From positions 1-32,410 of the forward strand of contig CANLQR010000022.1 in NCBI GenBank assembly GCA_947492135.1: a stretch of 32,410 nt of DNA, written 5' to 3'. Within the stretch, counting starts at the first letter, position 1; the number at the start of each line of letters is the position of its first letter. The notes under the pieces are model-generated. The model worked only from the letters and a program-made list of their open reading frames with translations. It did not search any database and was not told the DNA's origin. The translations under genes and the position numbers were made by a program. Below are positions 763 through 9,852 of this stretch, in pieces. Source of the stretch: Deltaproteobacteria bacterium. GTDB lineage: Bacteria > Myxococcota_A > Polyangia > Nannocystales > Nannocystaceae.

Positions 763-2058
763 TCAGGTCGGGCGGTCGCGCGGCCGTGGGATTCGATAGA
801 GTTCCAGTCGCGTCACGAGCGTCCTGCGCGAGATTCCCAGCAACTTTGCGGCCTGTGACTGGTTGCCGGCGCAACGCAGCAACGCGTCGAGGATTGCGCG
901 ACGCTCATCTCCGTCGCCCGCCGGGGCTGACACGACCGCGTCCGGCACATCGAGGGCGAGGTGCTCGGGTTGCAGCGCATCGGTGTCGCACTCGACGACG
1001 GCTTGGGCGATTCGCGCGTCGAGCTCGCGCAGATTTCCTGGCCAATGATAGTCCTCCGCAGCCGCCAACGTCCCCGTGGATGCCCGCGGCGGCGTCCGGC
1101 CCTGTGCGAGCGCGTGACGCCGTACGGCATCGATGACCAGGGCGGAGATCTCTGCCCCGCGGGCGCGTAGGGGCGGCACCTCGATCGCGACGCGCGAGAG
1201 TCGGAACATCAGCTCGCGCCGCACCTGGCCCGACTGCAGCAGCACCCCTACCGAGTCGCGGGAGGTCGCGATGATGCGGGCATCGATGGGCCTCGGACGT
1301 GCCCGACCGCGGCGTGTGAGCTCACCCGCGTCGAGCGCGGCGATGAGCCGTGCCTGCAGATCCAGCGGCATGCCGCCCACGTGGCGAAGCACCAGCGTGC
1401 CCCCTCGCGCGAGCTCGAGCGCACCGGCCACATCTTCCGCACCAAACAGCCGCAGCTCGAGCTCCTCGGGGCGCGATGCACTGCAATCGACGATCTCGAA
1501 GGGGCCGCCGCGTCGCCGCGAAAACGCATGGATCATCTGGGCCAAGCGGGTCTTGCCGACCCCGCTCTCCCCGACCAGCAGCACGCCATGATCCGCTTCG
1601 GCAGCGTGGTCGCAGAGCGTACGCACGCGAAGCATCGCGGCGCTGGTCATCGCCGACCCGTACGCGCTGAGGTTCGTGGGCTCCACGCCCCGCACGTGAA
1701 CGACCATGACACAGCCGCCGACCTCGATGGTCTCTTCGTGGCACAGCTCGACCGGCTCTTGCGGTCGCAGCCGTCGACCCCCGGCGCGAGTGCCGTTGCG
1801 GCTCCCGAGATCGACCACGCGCACCCGATCGGTGATCTCGATCTTTGCGTGGTGACGCGACACGCCTTCGTCATCGAGCTGAATCTCAGCGCCAGGGTCG
1901 CGCCCGATCTGCAACGAGCCGTTGCGCGGGAGCTCGCGCCGAGTGATGCCATCACTTCGCACGATCACCAACGTCAGCGGCCAGATCGGCAGAGGCTCAC
2001 GGTCGATCGGCCGGGTCGGCATCCCTGGGTTGAGAGTCATGATCAAGATTAGGGTCAT
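763..2058 (-). CDS. FHA domain / AAA+ / FIS-type HTH regulator, degenerate sigma-54 activator-like
   Basis: This is a cytoplasmic transcription regulator of about 431 residues. An N-terminal FHA domain (about 45-115; GR, SRHH and SRNGT motifs) should bind phosphothreonine, so its input is probably a Ser/Thr kinase. A sigma-54-activator AAA+ domain follows (about 140-365; Walker A GESGVGKT at about 163-170, WPGNLREL at about 339-346), then a FIS-type helix-turn-helix (about 385-425; NQSQAAKLLGISRRTL). Two hallmarks are missing. The GAFTGA loop that contacts sigma-54 is absent (the chain goes LFGAEDVAGALELARGGTL), and Walker B reads TLVLRH where LFLDE is usual. I infer it may bind DNA and nucleotide without remodelling sigma-54 holoenzyme. 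I chose the ATG at 2058; in-frame ATGs at 2040 and 2022 and a TTG at 2076 are alternatives, and none has a strong ribosome-binding site. It is divergent from the kinase at 2354. Confidence 0.88.
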   Translation of the reverse strand: MTLILIMTLNPGMPTRPIDREPLPIWPLTLVIVRSDGITRRELPRNGSLQIGRDPGAEIQLDDEGVSRHHAKIEITDRVRVVDLGSRNGTRAGGRRLRPQEPVELCHEETIEVGGCVMVVHVRGVEPTNLSAYGSAMTSAAMLRVRTLCDHAAEADHGVLLVGESGVGKTRLAQMIHAFSRRRGGPFEIVDCSASRPEELELRLFGAEDVAGALELARGGTLVLRHVGGMPLDLQARLIAALDAGELTRRGRARPRPIDARIIATSRDSVGVLLQSGQVRRELMFRLSRVAIEVPPLRARGAEISALVIDAVRRHALAQGRTPPRASTGTLAAAEDYHWPGNLRELDARIAQAVVECDTDALQPEHLALDVPDAVVSAPAGDGDERRAILDALLRCAGNQSQAAKLLGISRRTLVTRLELYRIPRPRDRPT

Positions 2059-2155
2059 TTCTCGAGGTCGCAGCAACCGGTTGCGGCACGGACACAGGCT
2101 TAAATGTGGCCACCGACCTGCGCGAAAACGGGCTCGCTGCCCTTACTCGCGCCGA

Positions 2156-2198
2156 TTTGGCGATTCTGCGCATTTGGCGCCCTTTGGCGCGTTTGGCA
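2156..2198. repeat. Cluster of four TTTGGC-type direct repeats in the divergent spacer
   Basis: TTTGGCG occurs at 2156-2162, 2173-2179 and 2183-2189, and TTTGGCA at 2192-2198, all in the same orientation with steps of 17, 10 and 9 bp. The cluster lies in the 295-bp spacer between the divergent FHA-regulator and kinase genes. The near-helical spacing of the last three copies would suit a regulator array. I see no clear -10/-35 or -24/-12 element nearby, so any binding role is inference. Confidence 0.4.
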
Positions 2199-2353
2199 AA
2201 GTGGAGCTTCGTGCCAGCGTTTCACCATGCCTGCGACTCGCGGATGCGTTGCTCTCAAGCATGGTGACGATGCGGACGAGAAATAGCTGAGCCTTTGGGT
2301 ATGCTTCTCACCCTTCAGGGCGTGACTCACGTCCCTCGGTTTCCAGACTCCAG

Positions 2354-5044
2354 ATGCCACACGGGCTTGAAGACGAGACCCCGAGGGGGCGGGAGCCGAC
2401 CCTCGGGGCAAGGACCACCGCCCACCGGGGTACTCCGGACTCACGCGACGATTTCGATGACGATCGCTCGACTCTCGATGCGCTGCAGTGCATCGGTCGC
2501 TATCTGATCCGGAGCCGGATTGGCGCCGGAGGCATGGGCACTGTGCTCGCGGGCTATGACCCCGAGCTCGATCGTCGGGTCGCGATCAAGCTGGTGAGGG
2601 GACTTCGAGATCGCGACGCGCTCGCCCCGTCAGGCGCTCGGCTCCGGCGCGAAGCCCAGAGTCTCGCCCGCCTGTCGCATCCGAATGTGGTCGCAGTTCA
2701 CGACGCAGGCATTCATGGCTTGTTCGCCTACTTGGTGATGGAACATGTGGAGGGCTTGGACCTCCGCGGGTGGATCAAAGCGGGCCCGCACTCCTGGGAA
2801 GCGCGGGTGAGCCTGCTGCTCGCGGCCGGAAGTGGCCTCGCCGCAGCCCACGCGGCGGGCCTTGCCCACTGCGACATCAAGCCCGAGAACATCCTCGTAG
2901 GCGACGACGGTCGTGTGCGCGTCGCCGACTTCGGCCTCGCCCGCCTGCGTCACGCCCTCGAGTCCGACGACCCGACGCCTGGCGTGCAGTTCGGAACGCC
3001 TGCATACATGGCCCCTGAGACGGCCACCAGCGGTACCGTGGGGCCCCTGGCAGACCAGTACAGGTTTTGCGTGATGGGAATCGAGTTGCTCACCGGGCGG
3101 CGCCCGAGCACCGCCCACGCCCGCGACGGATCACTCGTCTCGCGCCGCGGCTCTCGGCCGCGCGGGGCCATCCTCGCGATTCTCGAGCGCGGTCTGGTCG
3201 AAGATCCCAAGCAGCGCTTTGCGTCGATGGATGCGCTGCTCGCGGCGATTGGGCAAGTGCGGCGGCGGCGTGGGTTGTTCCGCTTGGGACTGGTCACGGC
3301 CGTCGGGCTCGCCACCGGCGTGTCGATCGCCGCCATGGCTGCCGACTCCACGCTCGGGTGTTCGGAGGTGGCGGACGCGCTGCGCTCGCACTGGGCCGCA
3401 CAAAAAGACCCTGTACGCGAGTGGCTGACGAGTCAGCCACATCCGCGATCCCCCGCCGCGTGGGAGCGCGTCGAGGCCCAGCTCGACACCTACGTCGAGG
3501 ATTGGTCCCAACGCCGAGACGCAGCATGCGAGGCCTTGGGTGGTACGGGCGGCCAGGGACAACTGTCGCAGCGCATCGAGTGTCTCGAACAGCGTCGCGC
3601 CACGGTTACGGTCTGGATGGAGTCGCTCGGTAGCGCGGACGATGCCTTGATCGAGAGGCTCGCCTCACAGGACTTGCAGCTCCCCGCCCTGGAGTATTGC
3701 GACGACGAGCGTGCACTGGCACAGCTGCCCGCGACGCCGGCAGATCCGATCACCGCGGTGTTGGTCGGCCAGGCCCAGCACGATCTTGCCGAGGCAGCGA
3801 CGCTCCGCGACGCCGGCCACTTTGCCGACAGCGAGACACTGCTCGATCAGGTCGAGGCGCTCGCGGTGCAGCGCAAGTACCCGCCGCTGCTGGCCGAGGC
3901 CACGCTCGCGCGTGGTCGCCTCCTGAGCCTGCGCCGCGACGATCACGCTGCCGAGGCGGCGATTCGTGGCGCGATCGTTCTGGCCGAGCATGGCGTGCAC
4001 CCCCGAGTCGTCGGCGAGGCATGGATCGAGCTTGCCGCCCACCACGTACGTCGTCACGGCTCGATCCGAGACGCCGAGATCCTGATCGCTAGCGCAGACA
4101 TGGTCATCGAGGCGCTCGGCCGGCCTGGAGATCTGGTCGGGCCGCTCGCGCTCGTGCGCGGCCGTGCGATCCTCGACGACAACCGCTTCGAGGAGGCGTG
4201 TGCCGTCTTCGAAGACCTCGAGGCCACGCAGCCGGGCATCGTCGAGCGTGACCAGCTCGCCCAGGCGCTGGGCGAGTGTTACACGGCGCTCAATCGTTTT
4301 AGCGACGCGATGCGTTGGCTCGACCAAGCCCTGGCGCTGCGTGAAGCCGAGCTCGGCGGAGTTCACCCGGCGGTCGCGCAAACGCTCCTTGCACAAGGTC
4401 GCGTCCACGTCCGCCAACAGCGGGCGCACTTGGCCGATGCCCCGCTGCGTCGCGCGCTCGAGATCCGCCGCAACGCTTACGGTGATGAGCATCCGGCGGT
4501 CGCGGATGCCCTGAACTCGCTGGGCGGCAGTCAGATGCGTCGTGGCGACCTGGTCTCGGCCCGGACTTCGCTCGAGACCGCCGCAGGCATCGTTGCGCGC
4601 AATCCGACGGTCTCGGACTTGGAGGCCTCCAAGGTGCTCTCCAACCTGGGCTCCACGTATTCCAAGCTTGGGATGCACGCCGAAGCCGACGCCGCGCTCT
4701 TGGATGCGCGTGCTCGACTCGTGCGCGCGGTCGGTCCCCAGCACACGAGCAACGCCCTGGTGCTCTTGAACCTCAGCGACGCCCGCGAGCAAGCCGGTGA
4801 CTTCCCCGGGGCAGTGCAGTGGCTTCAACGCGCCGTCGATCTGCTTGCCGAGGTCCCGAGTCGGCGGAATCAGCGAGTCCGCAGGTTGATACACATGGCG
4901 GATTTGCTTTGGGACCACAACATCGATCGCCATCTGGCCCGCGAGCGCATGCAAGATGCAGCCGCCATCGCGGGTTCGAGCCAAGCACCTGTCATCGCGG
5001 CCTGGCTCGCCGCTCATGGCGAGCCAGACCCCGTCGCGAAGTAG
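2354..5044 (+). CDS. Membrane Ser/Thr protein kinase (Pkn2-type, non-RD) with TPR tail
   Basis: This 896-residue kinase has the architecture common in myxobacteria. The cytoplasmic kinase domain (about 48-300) shows the glycine loop GAGGMG (57-62), VAIK with Lys79, Glu100 for the alpha-C helix, catalytic loop HCDIKPEN with Asp174 and Asn179, DFG (192-194) and an APE motif (220-222). The usual HRD arginine is Cys173, making it a non-RD kinase. A basic stop-transfer stretch (RRRRG) and one membrane segment follow (about 311-330). The rest, about 560 residues, is alpha-helical with recurring TPR-like units such as 'AEADAALLDARARL' and 'LGECYTALNRFSDAMRWLDQALALREAELG'. The tail probably senses or scaffolds protein partners across the membrane. 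The FHA regulator encoded divergently next door is a plausible phospho-target (inference). No strong ribosome-binding site precedes the chosen ATG. Confidence 0.93.
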   Translation: MPHGLEDETPRGREPTLGARTTAHRGTPDSRDDFDDDRSTLDALQCIGRYLIRSRIGAGGMGTVLAGYDPELDRRVAIKLVRGLRDRDALAPSGARLRREAQSLARLSHPNVVAVHDAGIHGLFAYLVMEHVEGLDLRGWIKAGPHSWEARVSLLLAAGSGLAAAHAAGLAHCDIKPENILVGDDGRVRVADFGLARLRHALESDDPTPGVQFGTPAYMAPETATSGTVGPLADQYRFCVMGIELLTGRRPSTAHARDGSLVSRRGSRPRGAILAILERGLVEDPKQRFASMDALLAAIGQVRRRRGLFRLGLVTAVGLATGVSIAAMAADSTLGCSEVADALRSHWAAQKDPVREWLTSQPHPRSPAAWERVEAQLDTYVEDWSQRRDAACEALGGTGGQGQLSQRIECLEQRRATVTVWMESLGSADDALIERLASQDLQLPALEYCDDERALAQLPATPADPITAVLVGQAQHDLAEAATLRDAGHFADSETLLDQVEALAVQRKYPPLLAEATLARGRLLSLRRDDHAAEAAIRGAIVLAEHGVHPRVVGEAWIELAAHHVRRHGSIRDAEILIASADMVIEALGRPGDLVGPLALVRGRAILDDNRFEEACAVFEDLEATQPGIVERDQLAQALGECYTALNRFSDAMRWLDQALALREAELGGVHPAVAQTLLAQGRVHVRQQRAHLADAPLRRALEIRRNAYGDEHPAVADALNSLGGSQMRRGDLVSARTSLETAAGIVARNPTVSDLEASKVLSNLGSTYSKLGMHAEADAALLDARARLVRAVGPQHTSNALVLLNLSDAREQAGDFPGAVQWLQRAVDLLAEVPSRRNQRVRRLIHMADLLWDHNIDRHLARERMQDAAAIAGSSQAPVIAAWLAAHGEPDPVAK

Positions 5045-6247: not shown

Positions 6248-7798
6248 CTACAGCGTCTTGAGGTATTCTAGGACCGCTTCACGCTCGGCGGTCGAGAGCG
6301 CGTCGCCGAACTCGTGACCGCTGTTCCAGTGGCCTTGCAGCGTGGTGTCGTAGACGTGCTTGCGTTCGTCCGCGGGCGCGTCCTGCCACGAATACGGCAC
6401 CTCGACCCACGGCCAGCCGAGTGCAGCTTCGTCGAAATTCGTCGAGTCGTAGTCGATGCGCTTCCACCGGGTCGGCCGCGCGGCGCTGTCGAGCACAAGC
6501 TCGAGGGTGGGCACTGACCCGTTGTGGAAAAATGGCGCGGTGGCCCAGATGCCATCGAGCGGTGGCGCGGTGTAGCCGACCACCGGATCATCCACGACCA
6601 GCTGCGTGATCGCACCGTACACCGATCCGTTGAACCACTCGATCAGCGGCGAATCCCGCGAATACTCGGCCACGAGTGGATCGGTGCCGATGACGTCGAG
6701 CCCGAAGATCAGGTTGGGGTACCACTCGTCGGCATCGGACTCGGCGTAACTGCCGTGGCAGCCCGCGCACGTCGCAGCGAACACGTCGGCGCCGACCGCC
6801 GCGAGGTCGGGATTGATCGCGAAGGGATACGTCGGGGCCTCGAGCGAGGCGACATAGGCGCGAATGTTGTTGAAGTAGCTGAGGATCTGCTCGGCCTCTT
6901 CGACGGTGTCGGTGCACAGCGACGACGCAAACATCATCGTGCCGCGGTGATCGCCGCGAGCCATGCCGTTGTAGAACAAGCCGTGCTTCTTCTTGACCCG
7001 CCACCATGGCGGAGTATCGACCGGAGCCACGAGGTCGGGGATCTCCGAGTGGGGCTCGTCACTCCACGCCAGCGTGTCGCGATCGCGATGCGCTGCGAGC
7101 ACGACCGCGATCTCGTCGGCAGGATTGGTCCCGATCGTGTTCATCGTGATCGCCGGGCCAAGCACCTGGTAGCGCTGTACGAATCGGGTCAGCTCCTCGA
7201 GGCCGGGGATCGCGAGCGGCGGAATCACGAGCCCGCCGAGCAGATCGCCAAAGTTCTGGGTGTAGTCGGCATCGGCCCTGCCCAGGCCGATCACGAGCTC
7301 ACCGTTGAAGCGGCCCGCGTGGCACTCGAGGCAGTTCAGCGACGCGATCTCGGCCCCGCTGTCGGTGACGTGGACCGTCCAGTTGTAGGGCACCAGCGCG
7401 TTGTTCCCGGTGCGACCCGGCAACGGTTCTTCGCTCGCGAAACCACCGAGCAGGGGCTTGGCCAGCGCGAACATCACGAACGGGATCCCGCACGAGACGT
7501 AGCCCTCGTTGAGCAGCGCCCAATATCCGGCCTCGGGATCACCGTCCACCGGATCGCCCGGCGGGATCGGAAAGCCCTGCGTCCACGGTCCACCCGGCGC
7601 ACCGGTGTCGCCTTCGCCTTGCGACGTGGCGGTGCCCGTGGTCGTGCTCGGGTCTGCTGTGGTGGTAGTGGTGGTGGTGGCGATCGAATCGACGGTGGTG
7701 CTCGAGTCGACCGCGGTCGCGGCAGTGATCCCGGCGCCGTCGTTCGAGCACGCGGCCAATGTGCACGCCAGCGCGCACGCCCCAAGCGAGTGTCGCAT
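6248..7798 (-). CDS. Di-haem cytochrome c lipoprotein, RoxA / cytochrome c peroxidase-like
   Basis: The 516-residue envelope protein has a lipobox ending in LAA-Cys17, a Thr/Ser-rich linker (about 28-62) and two covalent haem sites, CLECH (156-160) and CAGCH (344-348). The C-terminal stretch 'YTAPPLDGIWATAPFFHNGSVPTLELVL' is the strongly conserved block of the RoxA-like and di-haem peroxidase-like families. 'PPWWRVKKKHGLFYNGMARGDHRG' between the haems is also typical of the RoxA-like branch. Known relatives are exported oxygenases or peroxidases: RoxA cleaves rubber using O2, and CcpA-type enzymes reduce H2O2. The substrate here cannot be told. I chose ATG 7798, which has a GGGGT site about 7 bp upstream, over a GTG at 7807. 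It ends a co-directional run that starts at trpS and lies 58 bp after the EEP-fold gene. Confidence 0.88.
   Translation of the reverse strand: MRHSLGACALACTLAACSNDGAGITAATAVDSSTTVDSIATTTTTTTADPSTTTGTATSQGEGDTGAPGGPWTQGFPIPPGDPVDGDPEAGYWALLNEGYVSCGIPFVMFALAKPLLGGFASEEPLPGRTGNNALVPYNWTVHVTDSGAEIASLNCLECHAGRFNGELVIGLGRADADYTQNFGDLLGGLVIPPLAIPGLEELTRFVQRYQVLGPAITMNTIGTNPADEIAVVLAAHRDRDTLAWSDEPHSEIPDLVAPVDTPPWWRVKKKHGLFYNGMARGDHRGTMMFASSLCTDTVEEAEQILSYFNNIRAYVASLEAPTYPFAINPDLAAVGADVFAATCAGCHGSYAESDADEWYPNLIFGLDVIGTDPLVAEYSRDSPLIEWFNGSVYGAITQLVVDDPVVGYTAPPLDGIWATAPFFHNGSVPTLELVLDSAARPTRWKRIDYDSTNFDEAALGWPWVEVPYSWQDAPADERKHVYDTTLQGHWNSGHEFGDALSTAEREAVLEYLKTL
7659..7680. repeat. GTG/ACC triplet microsatellite encoding a Thr tract
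   Basis: A short, slightly interrupted GTG triplet run on the + strand encodes the Thr-rich linker just after the lipobox of the di-haem cytochrome on the opposite strand. It could change length by slippage, in whole codons, without breaking the frame. I see no sign that it regulates expression. Confidence 0.5.
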
Positions 7799-7856
7799 CG
7801 CAGTCACCCCACAGGCACGGTAGCACGGGTGCAGCGCGCTCGGGAGGGTCGGCCAA

Positions 7857-8918
7857 TCACCAAGTCACGTCGACGACGATCGGCAGGTGGTCACTGCCCG
7901 AGACCTCGAGGATCTCCGCGCGAGCGACCCGCAGATCGTCCGACACCAGCAAGTGATCGATACGCCTGCCGGTGAGCCCGGAGCCGACCGTGCGCGCGAA
8001 GATGCCGCTGCCTGCGAGCGCATCGACGAACCCATCGTCGAGCACATCGCCGACGATGCGCCCCCACGCGCTGGCGTTCCAGTCGCCGCCCACGATCAGC
8101 GGCCGTGGCAGCGACCGCAGGTGCTCGGCGAGGCCGCGACCCTGCTCGCGGATCGCGGTGACGATCTCGCTCGCGGTGCCGTCGTGGGCCTCGCCGCGGT
8201 CGACGCTGTCCGCGACGGCGAACAACTTGGGCATCAGGTGCAGGCACGCGATCGAAACCACGGTGGTGTCTTGCACGACGCCGACCACCAGCAGCGGCCG
8301 TGCGGCGGGTCCGGGTGCCAGCGGCAACGCGCTGACCGACACCACAGGCAGTCGCGAGAGCGCGCGGACCTCACCGTCACCGACGAGCTGCCAGGGTTCG
8401 CCGAGCAGTTCGGGGAGCCTGGCGCTGTCTTCGTCTCGCAGCCAGCGGTAGCTGCCGGCCTCGGACAGACAGATGACGTCGGCCCCGATCGCCGCGAGAC
8501 CGCGGGCGATCGCTTCGAGACCACCGGCGCCCTTGGCGATGTTCCACGCCGCAACCCGCAAGCGCGCAGCTGCAGCGGTGGGCGGCGGCGAGGGGCGCAC
8601 GGCTACGACCGCGAGCGCGAGCAGCACCACGCCGATCGACGCCGTGAGTCGACGTCGAGGCCAGAGCGCGACCACCGAGGCACCGGCCACGAACACCCCC
8701 GCGATGAGGATTCGCGGCGGCATCGCACACACCACGGCCAGCACCAGGGTGTTCTCGCCGACCCAGTGCGCGAGCAGCATCAGCGCGACCACGGTGACGC
8801 CGACGATGGCGCCAACCAACCCGATTCTCCGGGCCCAGCGTGACGAGGCTGGCTGGGGCACCGGCAACGCGAAGAGACTACCGAAGATCCGGATGGCTCG
8901 CAGCGCCCCAGAATCCAT
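7857..8918 (-). CDS. Endonuclease/exonuclease/phosphatase (EEP) family protein with N-terminal membrane segments
   Basis: The N-terminal third (about 28-108) holds three hydrophobic segments. The rest is an EEP (DNase I-like) domain: 'VAAWNIAKG' near 122-130, 'CLSEAG' with the metal-binding Glu near 150, 'VGGDWNASAWG' near 275-285 and the terminal 'GSDHLPIVVDV' motif with the catalytic Asp-His. These are the residues that hold Mg2+ and attack a phosphodiester in the superfamily. Members with multi-pass N-termini are common in bacteria and may act on nucleic acid, phospholipid or inositol phosphates outside the membrane; the substrate is unknown. The ATG at 8918 makes a 41-bp overlap with the preceding lipoprotein gene. 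An internal TTG or GTG start is possible because no clear ribosome-binding site supports the ATG. It lies in the trpS-led co-directional run. Confidence 0.86.
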   Translation of the reverse strand: MDSGALRAIRIFGSLFALPVPQPASSRWARRIGLVGAIVGVTVVALMLLAHWVGENTLVLAVVCAMPPRILIAGVFVAGASVVALWPRRRLTASIGVVLLALAVVAVRPSPPPTAAAARLRVAAWNIAKGAGGLEAIARGLAAIGADVICLSEAGSYRWLRDEDSARLPELLGEPWQLVGDGEVRALSRLPVVSVSALPLAPGPAARPLLVVGVVQDTTVVSIACLHLMPKLFAVADSVDRGEAHDGTASEIVTAIREQGRGLAEHLRSLPRPLIVGGDWNASAWGRIVGDVLDDGFVDALAGSGIFARTVGSGLTGRRIDHLLVSDDLRVARAEILEVSGSDHLPIVVDVTW

Positions 8919-9852
8919 CGAGTCCGAACCCGACCACCACCACCTCGCCCGAGATCGAATCCATCGTGGCGATATTGCCGACCTGGTCGAACAACCACAG
9001 CGCCCCGCGAACCGACGCCATGCCCCACACGTTCGACAGTCCGGAGGCCAAACCGATCACGCCAAAAACCGTCCCCGTCGCCGGGTCGAGTGCCAGCACC
9101 AGATCGACGCCTGTGGCCGAAGGGCTGCTGAACACGGTCAGGTCATCGGACGTCGTCGTGATGTCGCCACTGGACGAATAGGGCGCTTCGATCTCGCCGA
9201 TCACCGTGACCGCCACCTCGGGCCCACGCAGATCGATCCGTGTCCACGCCGATCCGGCGAGGGTGACCAGCGTGTCGTCGTCGTTGTCGAGGGTGCCCAG
9301 CGGCAAGAAGGCCAACGAATTGCTCGGCACCGAGGCCAACGCCCAGCACTGGGCCGTGCTGGGATCACAGGCGTGCAGCACGTCGGAACCCAGCGCATAC
9401 AGCACACCGAAACGATCGATGGCGATGTCCGTGACCTGACTGAACGCATCGTCGGGGAAGCTGAAGTCTGCAATGGTCTCGACGATCGGGGCGCTCTCGG
9501 GCGCCAAGCTCGACAGCGTGAAGGCCGAGTGAACGTAGATGACGTCCTCTCGGGCGCGCCCGGGCCGATAGGTGTCGGTCGGAAAGGGGTCATCGGCATC
9601 GGGGACGCCATCGCCGTCGCAATCACTGCTGTGGCTGTCGAGGTCGCATTCGGGCGGATCCTCATCGGTGTCGGCGTCGCCCGTGATGGGCCATCCGCCG
9701 TCGTATTCGCCCAAACCGTCCGCGTCGCCGCCGGCGTCACCGCCCCCGCCACCCGTCGCGACGAGCACGTCCGATCGGCCACATGCGGCGATCAGCAGCA
9801 CGCTCGCCGCAGCGCCGCAACGCGCCGGTCGTCGTGGGTTCAGCTCGCGCAT
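8878..9852 (-). CDS. Putative lipoprotein with calcium-loop (TSP3-like) motif and beta-propeller-like body
   Basis: The 324-residue product has a lipobox (LIAA-Cys24), a Gly/Asp-rich linker and one acidic loop, 'DCDGDGVPDADDPFP' (about 77-91), like a thrombospondin type 3 calcium-binding repeat. The remaining 220 residues are beta-rich with recurring units of the kind 'VTDIAIDRFGVLYALG', 'SLAFLPLG', 'DLVLALDPATGTVFGVIGL' and 'GALWLFDQVGNIATMD'. These resemble the blades of a small beta-propeller of the sort found in myxobacterial surface lipoproteins. No enzyme motif is visible. It probably sits on the outer membrane. It overlaps the methyltransferase gene by 13 bp upstream and the EEP gene by 41 bp downstream on the same strand, so it is likely co-transcribed with them. 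Confidence 0.82.
   Translation of the reverse strand: MRELNPRRPARCGAAASVLLIAACGRSDVLVATGGGGGDAGGDADGLGEYDGGWPITGDADTDEDPPECDLDSHSSDCDGDGVPDADDPFPTDTYRPGRAREDVIYVHSAFTLSSLAPESAPIVETIADFSFPDDAFSQVTDIAIDRFGVLYALGSDVLHACDPSTAQCWALASVPSNSLAFLPLGTLDNDDDTLVTLAGSAWTRIDLRGPEVAVTVIGEIEAPYSSSGDITTTSDDLTVFSSPSATGVDLVLALDPATGTVFGVIGLASGLSNVWGMASVRGALWLFDQVGNIATMDSISGEVVVVGFGLDGFWGAASHPDLR

Follow-up and report, generated by a model that had tools for sequence, protein, structure and literature searches.

The FHA-AAA+-Fis HTH regulator encoded near the start of the window (the whole stretch of 32,410 nucleotides that was analysed) is, with moderate confidence, a sigma-54-independent, phosphothreonine-gated DNA-binding regulator that probably binds ATP without hydrolysing it. 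The ancestor of the gene would have been an FHA-type sigma-54 activator. The FHA domain would bind phosphothreonine, the most likely source of which is the Ser/Thr kinase of the divergent gene, acting either on itself or on a partner. The AAA+ domain would still fold, would probably bind nucleotide, with Walker A, the arginine fingers and sensor II kept, may oligomerise, and is predicted to be unable to hydrolyse ATP or push sigma-54. The Fis HTH would bind DNA, plausibly in the intergenic region shared with the kinase gene, and the regulator would activate or repress promoters that depend on another sigma factor.

The open reading frame extends over 763-2076 (-) when read from the upstream TTG and encodes 437 residues, or 431 from the ATG (Table 1). 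Pfam matches over cut-off were obtained to Sigma54_activat (residues 144-298; 110.8 bits against a curated cut-off of 20.2), FHA (57.5 bits), HTH_8 (47.7 bits) and AAA_lid_14 (44.1 bits). GC content by codon position was 0.75/0.51/0.80, similar to neighbouring genes. The source genome is a single draft assembly of 8 Mb in 754 contigs, 89.8% complete, with 32 Sigma54_activat matches at E <= 0.001 and 1 sigma-54 match; since sigma-54 is encoded there, the loss of the regulator's motor is not due to its absence.

Table 1. Features of the regulator gene and its surroundings (positions in the window)
Feature	Position	Strand	Basis or remark
FHA-AAA+-Fis HTH regulator gene	763-2058	-	ATG at 2058; alternative TTG at 2076; stop codon 763-765
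FHA domain PF00498, residues 57-120 of P0001	1717-1908	-	Pfam and conserved positions
Walker A GESGVGKT, kept	1549-1572	-	Alignment with relatives
L1 loop site LFGAEDVAG, GAFTGA absent, nine residues short	1423-1449	-	Alignment
Walker B region GTLVLRHVG, R231-H232 (1381-1386) in place of D-E	1375-1401	-	Alignment
Sensor I stretch ATSRD, residues 270-274	1255-1269	-	S-R opposite T-N of most intact relatives
Arginine-finger segment RRELMFR, R286 and R292 kept	1201-1221	-	Alignment
Sensor II segment WPGNLREL, kept	1021-1044	-	Alignment
Fis-type HTH PF02954 (HTH_8), residues 391-425	802-906	-	Pfam and conserved positions
Regulator-kinase shared intergenic region	2077-2353		Four TTTGGC at 2156, 2173, 2183 and 2192 (+)
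Ser/Thr protein kinase with C-terminal TPR repeats (P0002)	2354-5044	+	Pfam; divergent from regulator
Asparagine synthase C-terminal part	1-699	convergent with regulator	Truncated by contig start

The AAA+ motifs were compared with those of relatives by alignment. The L1 loop reads LFG-AEDVA-GALELA, against 14 residues from LFG to G in intact relatives (for example LFG-HEKGAFTGAVQAKP-GLLETA), which leaves it nine residues shorter overall. Walker B reads GGTLVLRHVGG against, for example, GGTVFLDEVGE, with DE replaced by RH. Among 71 reference relatives the Walker B D and E are 100% conserved and five of the GAFTGA residues 97-99%. K175, R286, R292 and R350 were kept, the arginine fingers sitting in VRRELMFRLSRV; L1, D231, E232 and N197 were altered. 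The names and roles of the Glu-switch, sensor I and sensor II come from PspF work. The preliminary description had claimed the loss of GAFTGA and the Walker B acids, which was borne out, and the retention of Walker A, WPGNLREL and a FIS-type HTH, which alignment and Pfam confirmed. Two further changes lay beyond its list: sensor I reads IIATSRDSV against FVAATNRDL-like sequence in most intact relatives (ungapped alignment), and the Asn of the VNC motif, at the N197 position, is Asp. With L1, Walker B, sensor I and the Glu-switch Asn all altered, the sequence gives good support to its expectation that the protein would neither hydrolyse ATP nor engage sigma-54 in the normal way. Because GAFTGA and the Walker B acids were tested for and neither was found, the regulator was not classed as a functional sigma-54 activator.

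That these differences stem from an assembly or sequencing error is highly improbable. The single draft assembly of 754 contigs leaves room for one, but an in-frame nine-residue deletion stands beside separate substitutions at D, E, sensor I and N197. The open reading frames of the two other frames across the stretch were inspected and contain no GAFTGA, and the change of DE to RH is a two-codon substitution.

Conservation was scored against the 71 FHA activator relatives, in which 100 columns were at least 90% conserved. The 71 relatives are what is left of the 91 FHA rows once the regulator, 15 members of the other main clade (including 3 loop-less ones) and 4 other loop-less rows are set aside. 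Point variants of the loop occur in four 'intact' reference rows (L172, L202, L217 and L197), and the point variants AAFTGA, GAFTSA, GASEGA and GAYTGA were not scored as loop-less. The loop-less L152 and L027 lack an FHA match. The regulator kept 12/12 conserved positions of the FHA domain, 14/14 of the C-terminal part (residues 391-432) and 50/74 of the AAA+ domain. All 24 changes lie within AAA+, with a chance of 2.2e-4 under an even spread, or 2.0e-3 without the 7 GAFTGA and DE columns. In the 71 reference rows the median share of AAA+ positions kept was 0.97 and the lowest 0.81, the rows being favoured because they defined the columns. Elsewhere in the same main clade, loop-less rows kept 0.69-0.81 of AAA+ and 0.92-1.0 of FHA positions. 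In the loop-less L040 the C-terminal share was 0.07; as almost all of these positions are gone, the HTH is not kept by every loop-less protein. The FHA positions kept by the regulator include G58 R59, S73 R74 H76 and N94 G95 T96, and the GR, SxxH and NG residues, which have a role in phosphothreonine recognition, are present. The pattern can be read as both ends of the protein still being in use with the motor released. Intact FHA and HTH positions together with the adjacent kinase strengthen the earlier suggestion that the protein may be phosphothreonine-gated in its DNA binding.

The AAA+ domain was modelled with pLDDT mostly 90-98, the FHA part being of low confidence in places. The AAA+ model matched FlrC with Z 29.5 and 1.6 Å over 238 residues; FlrC, NtrX, NtrC4, NtrC1, LuxO and FleQ were the closest structures, with VpsR slightly lower (Z 27.0). 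ATP binding without hydrolysis, which the preliminary description had not considered, is possible, and the kept Walker A, arginine fingers and sensor II may simply be leftovers from the ancestor. The retention of the same three motifs, with the residues for hydrolysis and sigma-54 contact gone, also fits a non-catalytic subunit in mixed rings with an intact FHA paralog, tuning or blocking it, the arginine fingers serving the ATP site of the neighbour. Intact FHA paralogs are present in the source genome (G000:C95, C328). In the excerpted text of PMC4132715, DNA remodelling by PspF tolerates alternating hydrolysis-defective subunits, and a hydrolysis-defective Walker B variant of PspF remodels its target in a manner that is still ATP-dependent. 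Identity to intact relatives is only ~36-43%, there is no sign of interaction, and the full HTH and FHA suggest independent binding, which makes a mixed ring quite unlikely.

In the best-scoring lists the nearest relatives of the regulator, at 36-43% identity, are FHA activators from its own genus, family and class, and nearly all of those aligned have GAFTGA and DE. Searches of 29 family genomes (at most 60 candidates scored per genome, E <= 1e-58) and 317 class genomes (five candidates scored per genome, E <= 1e-57) found no ortholog; these protein searches could miss a match that is weaker or ranked differently. Because no ortholog was found, selection on the regulator itself was not measurable. 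A scan of genome contigs with the regulator picked up 53 loci with identities of no more than 38%, almost all aligned outside the FHA part. The Walker B variant GGT-x-x-x-H-V/I-G was found in 2/377 phylum genomes (the source genome and G036) by a DNA pattern scan that covers this one motif form, the backwards control pattern giving 1 match.

A tree of 91 FHA activators was calculated with the loop and Walker B columns left out and with the 25/116 non-redundant activators lacking an FHA match omitted. The regulator has an end branch of 1.09, the second longest (median 0.45), and no supported sister. The preliminary description had raised the prospect of a conserved degenerate clade; with no ortholog in the searches and no supported sister, this was not borne out. 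As candidates for a clade sharing the defects, only G036 has an xH Walker B, and it stands apart in the tree; the best match in G245, a congener of G036, was 35% identical. The loop is deleted or shortened in 8/91 FHA rows (the regulator, L171, L184, L219, L220, L221, L040 and L153), which is not a natural frequency because the sample was chosen by similarity to the regulator. Loop loss has occurred repeatedly among FHA activators. On this tree it takes 6 changes (shuffle mean 7.8; 12/500 shuffles as low), and at least 2 are required by well-supported branches. Among the FHA rows, only the regulator and L171 (G036) have lost both Walker B acids. L171, at 7738-9177, is an FHA activator that has TH in place of DE and whose loop is shortened, and its defects are apparently independent of those of the regulator. 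A second loop-less FHA activator of the source genome, with DE retained, was located at 462-2438 of L153 (also in L258; G000:C152).

The long end branch of the regulator also fits early decay. A decaying gene or redundant paralog that had recently lost its motor and was on its way out would account for the branch and for the lack of an ortholog. It would also account for the surroundings of the neighbouring lipoprotein gene, whose orthologs in G002 (81%) and G003 (71%) have no FHA gene match in the 14.2 and 13.6 kb around them. Decay nevertheless appears unlikely: the conserved FHA and HTH positions are intact, every change is in AAA+, and the frame holds 437 codons with ordinary codon-position GC.

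Loop loss in progress was seen in another FHA activator, represented by an ortholog set (at least 62% identity) in 23/29 family genomes, 3 of the 23 being partial matches; this set was not found in the source genome. Of the 20 sequences aligned (L225-L244), 4 have both GAFTGA and DE intact (G001, G002, G003 and G021), and the loop is degraded or deleted in 16, with remnants of differing lengths and with FHA and HTH conserved. Six of the 16 retain DE and the second arginine finger; in the other 10 both changed together (Walker B to DD or ED; arginine to L, N or M), which is 1 change on the tree. The loop itself requires 2 changes by unweighted parsimony, or 4 losses if no regain is allowed, and a single clade of the 16 loop-damaged orthologs was not rejected at 0.05 (p-AU 0.07). 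Uncorrected pN/pS was 0.10-0.25 for the whole protein and 0.00-0.03 for the C-terminal part in five loop-less pairs, and 0.12-0.14 in two intact pairs. The loop-degraded ortholog set is under purifying selection. In a comparison of L251 with 11 other loci, the ortholog gene is directly followed by same-strand genes present in 9-10 of the 11; those of L251 match Pterin_bind (folP-like), DAC (c-di-AMP cyclase), YbbR and phosphoglucomutase (glmM-like). Upstream, fabZ-, ompH- and bamA-like genes are common to 6 of the 11. The conservation of the set despite loop loss means that FHA activators without the loop can be maintained and remain in use. A broader reading, which we put forward only tentatively and hold to have less than an even chance, is that FHA activators of this family repeatedly become ATP-binding, non-hydrolysing, kinase-gated, sigma-54-independent switches. 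The ortholog set would then supply the intermediates (with L1 lost first and Walker B and the second arginine finger afterwards), with the regulator as an extreme end point.

The kinase P0002 is likely the signalling partner of the regulator. In 36/143 flanks of 80 FHA activators (regulator included), the first P0002-like kinase is no more than 1 kb away. Counts of the first kinase in the next four kilobases were 6/131, 5/124, 5/117 and 0/112 flanks, where flanks with a nearer kinase stay in the later denominators, gene limits are stop-to-stop frames and related loci are not independent. Kinases flank FHA activators well above the local rate. Within 700 bases a kinase was found in 17/70 upstream and 15/66 downstream flanks; of these 32 kinases, 13 are divergent and 11 follow the activator on the same strand. 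Many FHA activators lack a neighbouring kinase. As a rough control, 1/16 non-FHA activators of the source genome has a kinase within 700 bases, with flanks of ~1.3 kb or less. An adjacent kinase was found for 2/7 loop-less activators (the regulator and L184), so the pairing is a general trait of FHA activators and not of loop-less ones. L184, at 6963-8633 (G254), is a loop-less FHA activator with Walker B intact and a kinase directly downstream. The excerpts of PMC4320627, PMC12288465 and PMC2875238 contain nothing on the pairing of FHA activators with kinases.

P0002-like Ser/Thr kinase-TPR proteins form a very large family, with 30-50 matches per genome at E <= 1e-60 in four genomes of the genus. 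No close ortholog of P0002 was found in the genus, the best-scoring match being 37% identical, with up to 42% over shorter stretches. The lipoprotein stretch of G003 contains two other kinase matches (31% and 43%), and no lipoprotein match was found in G001. The regulator-kinase pair looks lineage-specific. A defence system was considered and rejected, as PADLOC matched only AAA+ and kinase domains common to many proteins.

The four TTTGGC copies of the shared intergenic region fall within 42 bases (2156-2197) at spacings of 17, 10 and 9; none of 5000 shuffles equalled this arrangement, which was a post hoc find. Paired TTTGGCG recurs at just two other sites in the source genome, including a 12-base tandem repeat. 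Scans of 600-2500 found no sigma-70-type promoters or terminators. Upstream regions were also scored with the -24/-12 consensus. Among activators that are not loop-less, 11/81 have an upstream -24/-12-like site equalled by at most 2/100 shuffles (~2 expected by chance), and 10 of the 11 point away from the activator. Such a site was found in 1/8 loop-less activators (L184, upstream, facing away), which speaks against a simple rule. Between the regulator and the kinase no -24/-12-like site was found beyond the level of shuffles (89/100 as high), which would fit regulation at promoters of a different sigma factor. The loop-less L184 and a score far over the Sigma54_activat cut-off are what could be cited for a regulator that still activates sigma-54 through a different loop and different catalytic residues. 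With the near-invariant D, E and GAFTGA residues missing and the upstream site no better than shuffles, such activity is extremely unlikely.

FHA-type sigma-54 enhancer-binding proteins of myxobacteria were reportedly treated by Jelsbak et al. in 2005. They share the FHA-AAA+-Fis HTH layout of the regulator, which differs from them in that GAFTGA and the Walker B acids are gone and the defining output is not expected. VpsR, TyrR, DhaR, HupR and YplP presumably have other sensory domains and no FHA, unlike the regulator. Like it, they are sigma-54 activator paralogs in which GAFTGA is lacking or altered, and TyrR, DhaR and HupR are sigma-70-dependent (PMC3162934, in excerpt). According to the excerpts of PMC10274813, Caulobacter NtrC has an eight-residue deletion spanning GAFTGA, Rhodobacter capsulatus NtrC lacks GAFTGA through a larger in-frame L1 deletion, and both are reported to act at sigma-70 promoters; the regulator's in-frame L1 deletion is of nine residues. 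NtrC, as presented there, is a two-component response regulator without FHA, whereas the regulator has one, and Caulobacter NtrC still requires the Walker B Asp that the regulator has lost (PMC10274813). Because GAFTGA-less activators are described in these excerpts as working without sigma-54 (PMC10274813, PMC3162934), the proposed mechanism would not be unique. Sigma54_activat homology, a lost L1 and a kept Fis HTH, the features of a GAFTGA-less activator paralog, were all found in the regulator, and we infer that it works like such a paralog with an FHA input. The whole words GAFTGA and FHA occur together in no paper of one open-access literature collection.

The regulator unites two themes, the abandonment of sigma-54 by activators and Ser/Thr kinase signalling through FHA domains. 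Orthologs whose GAFTGA is intact, damaged or deleted form a natural series that makes the fate of an activator after the loss of sigma-54 directly testable. If the proposed mechanism is true, the reading of phosphothreonine would here be wired to DNA without an ATP-burning motor.
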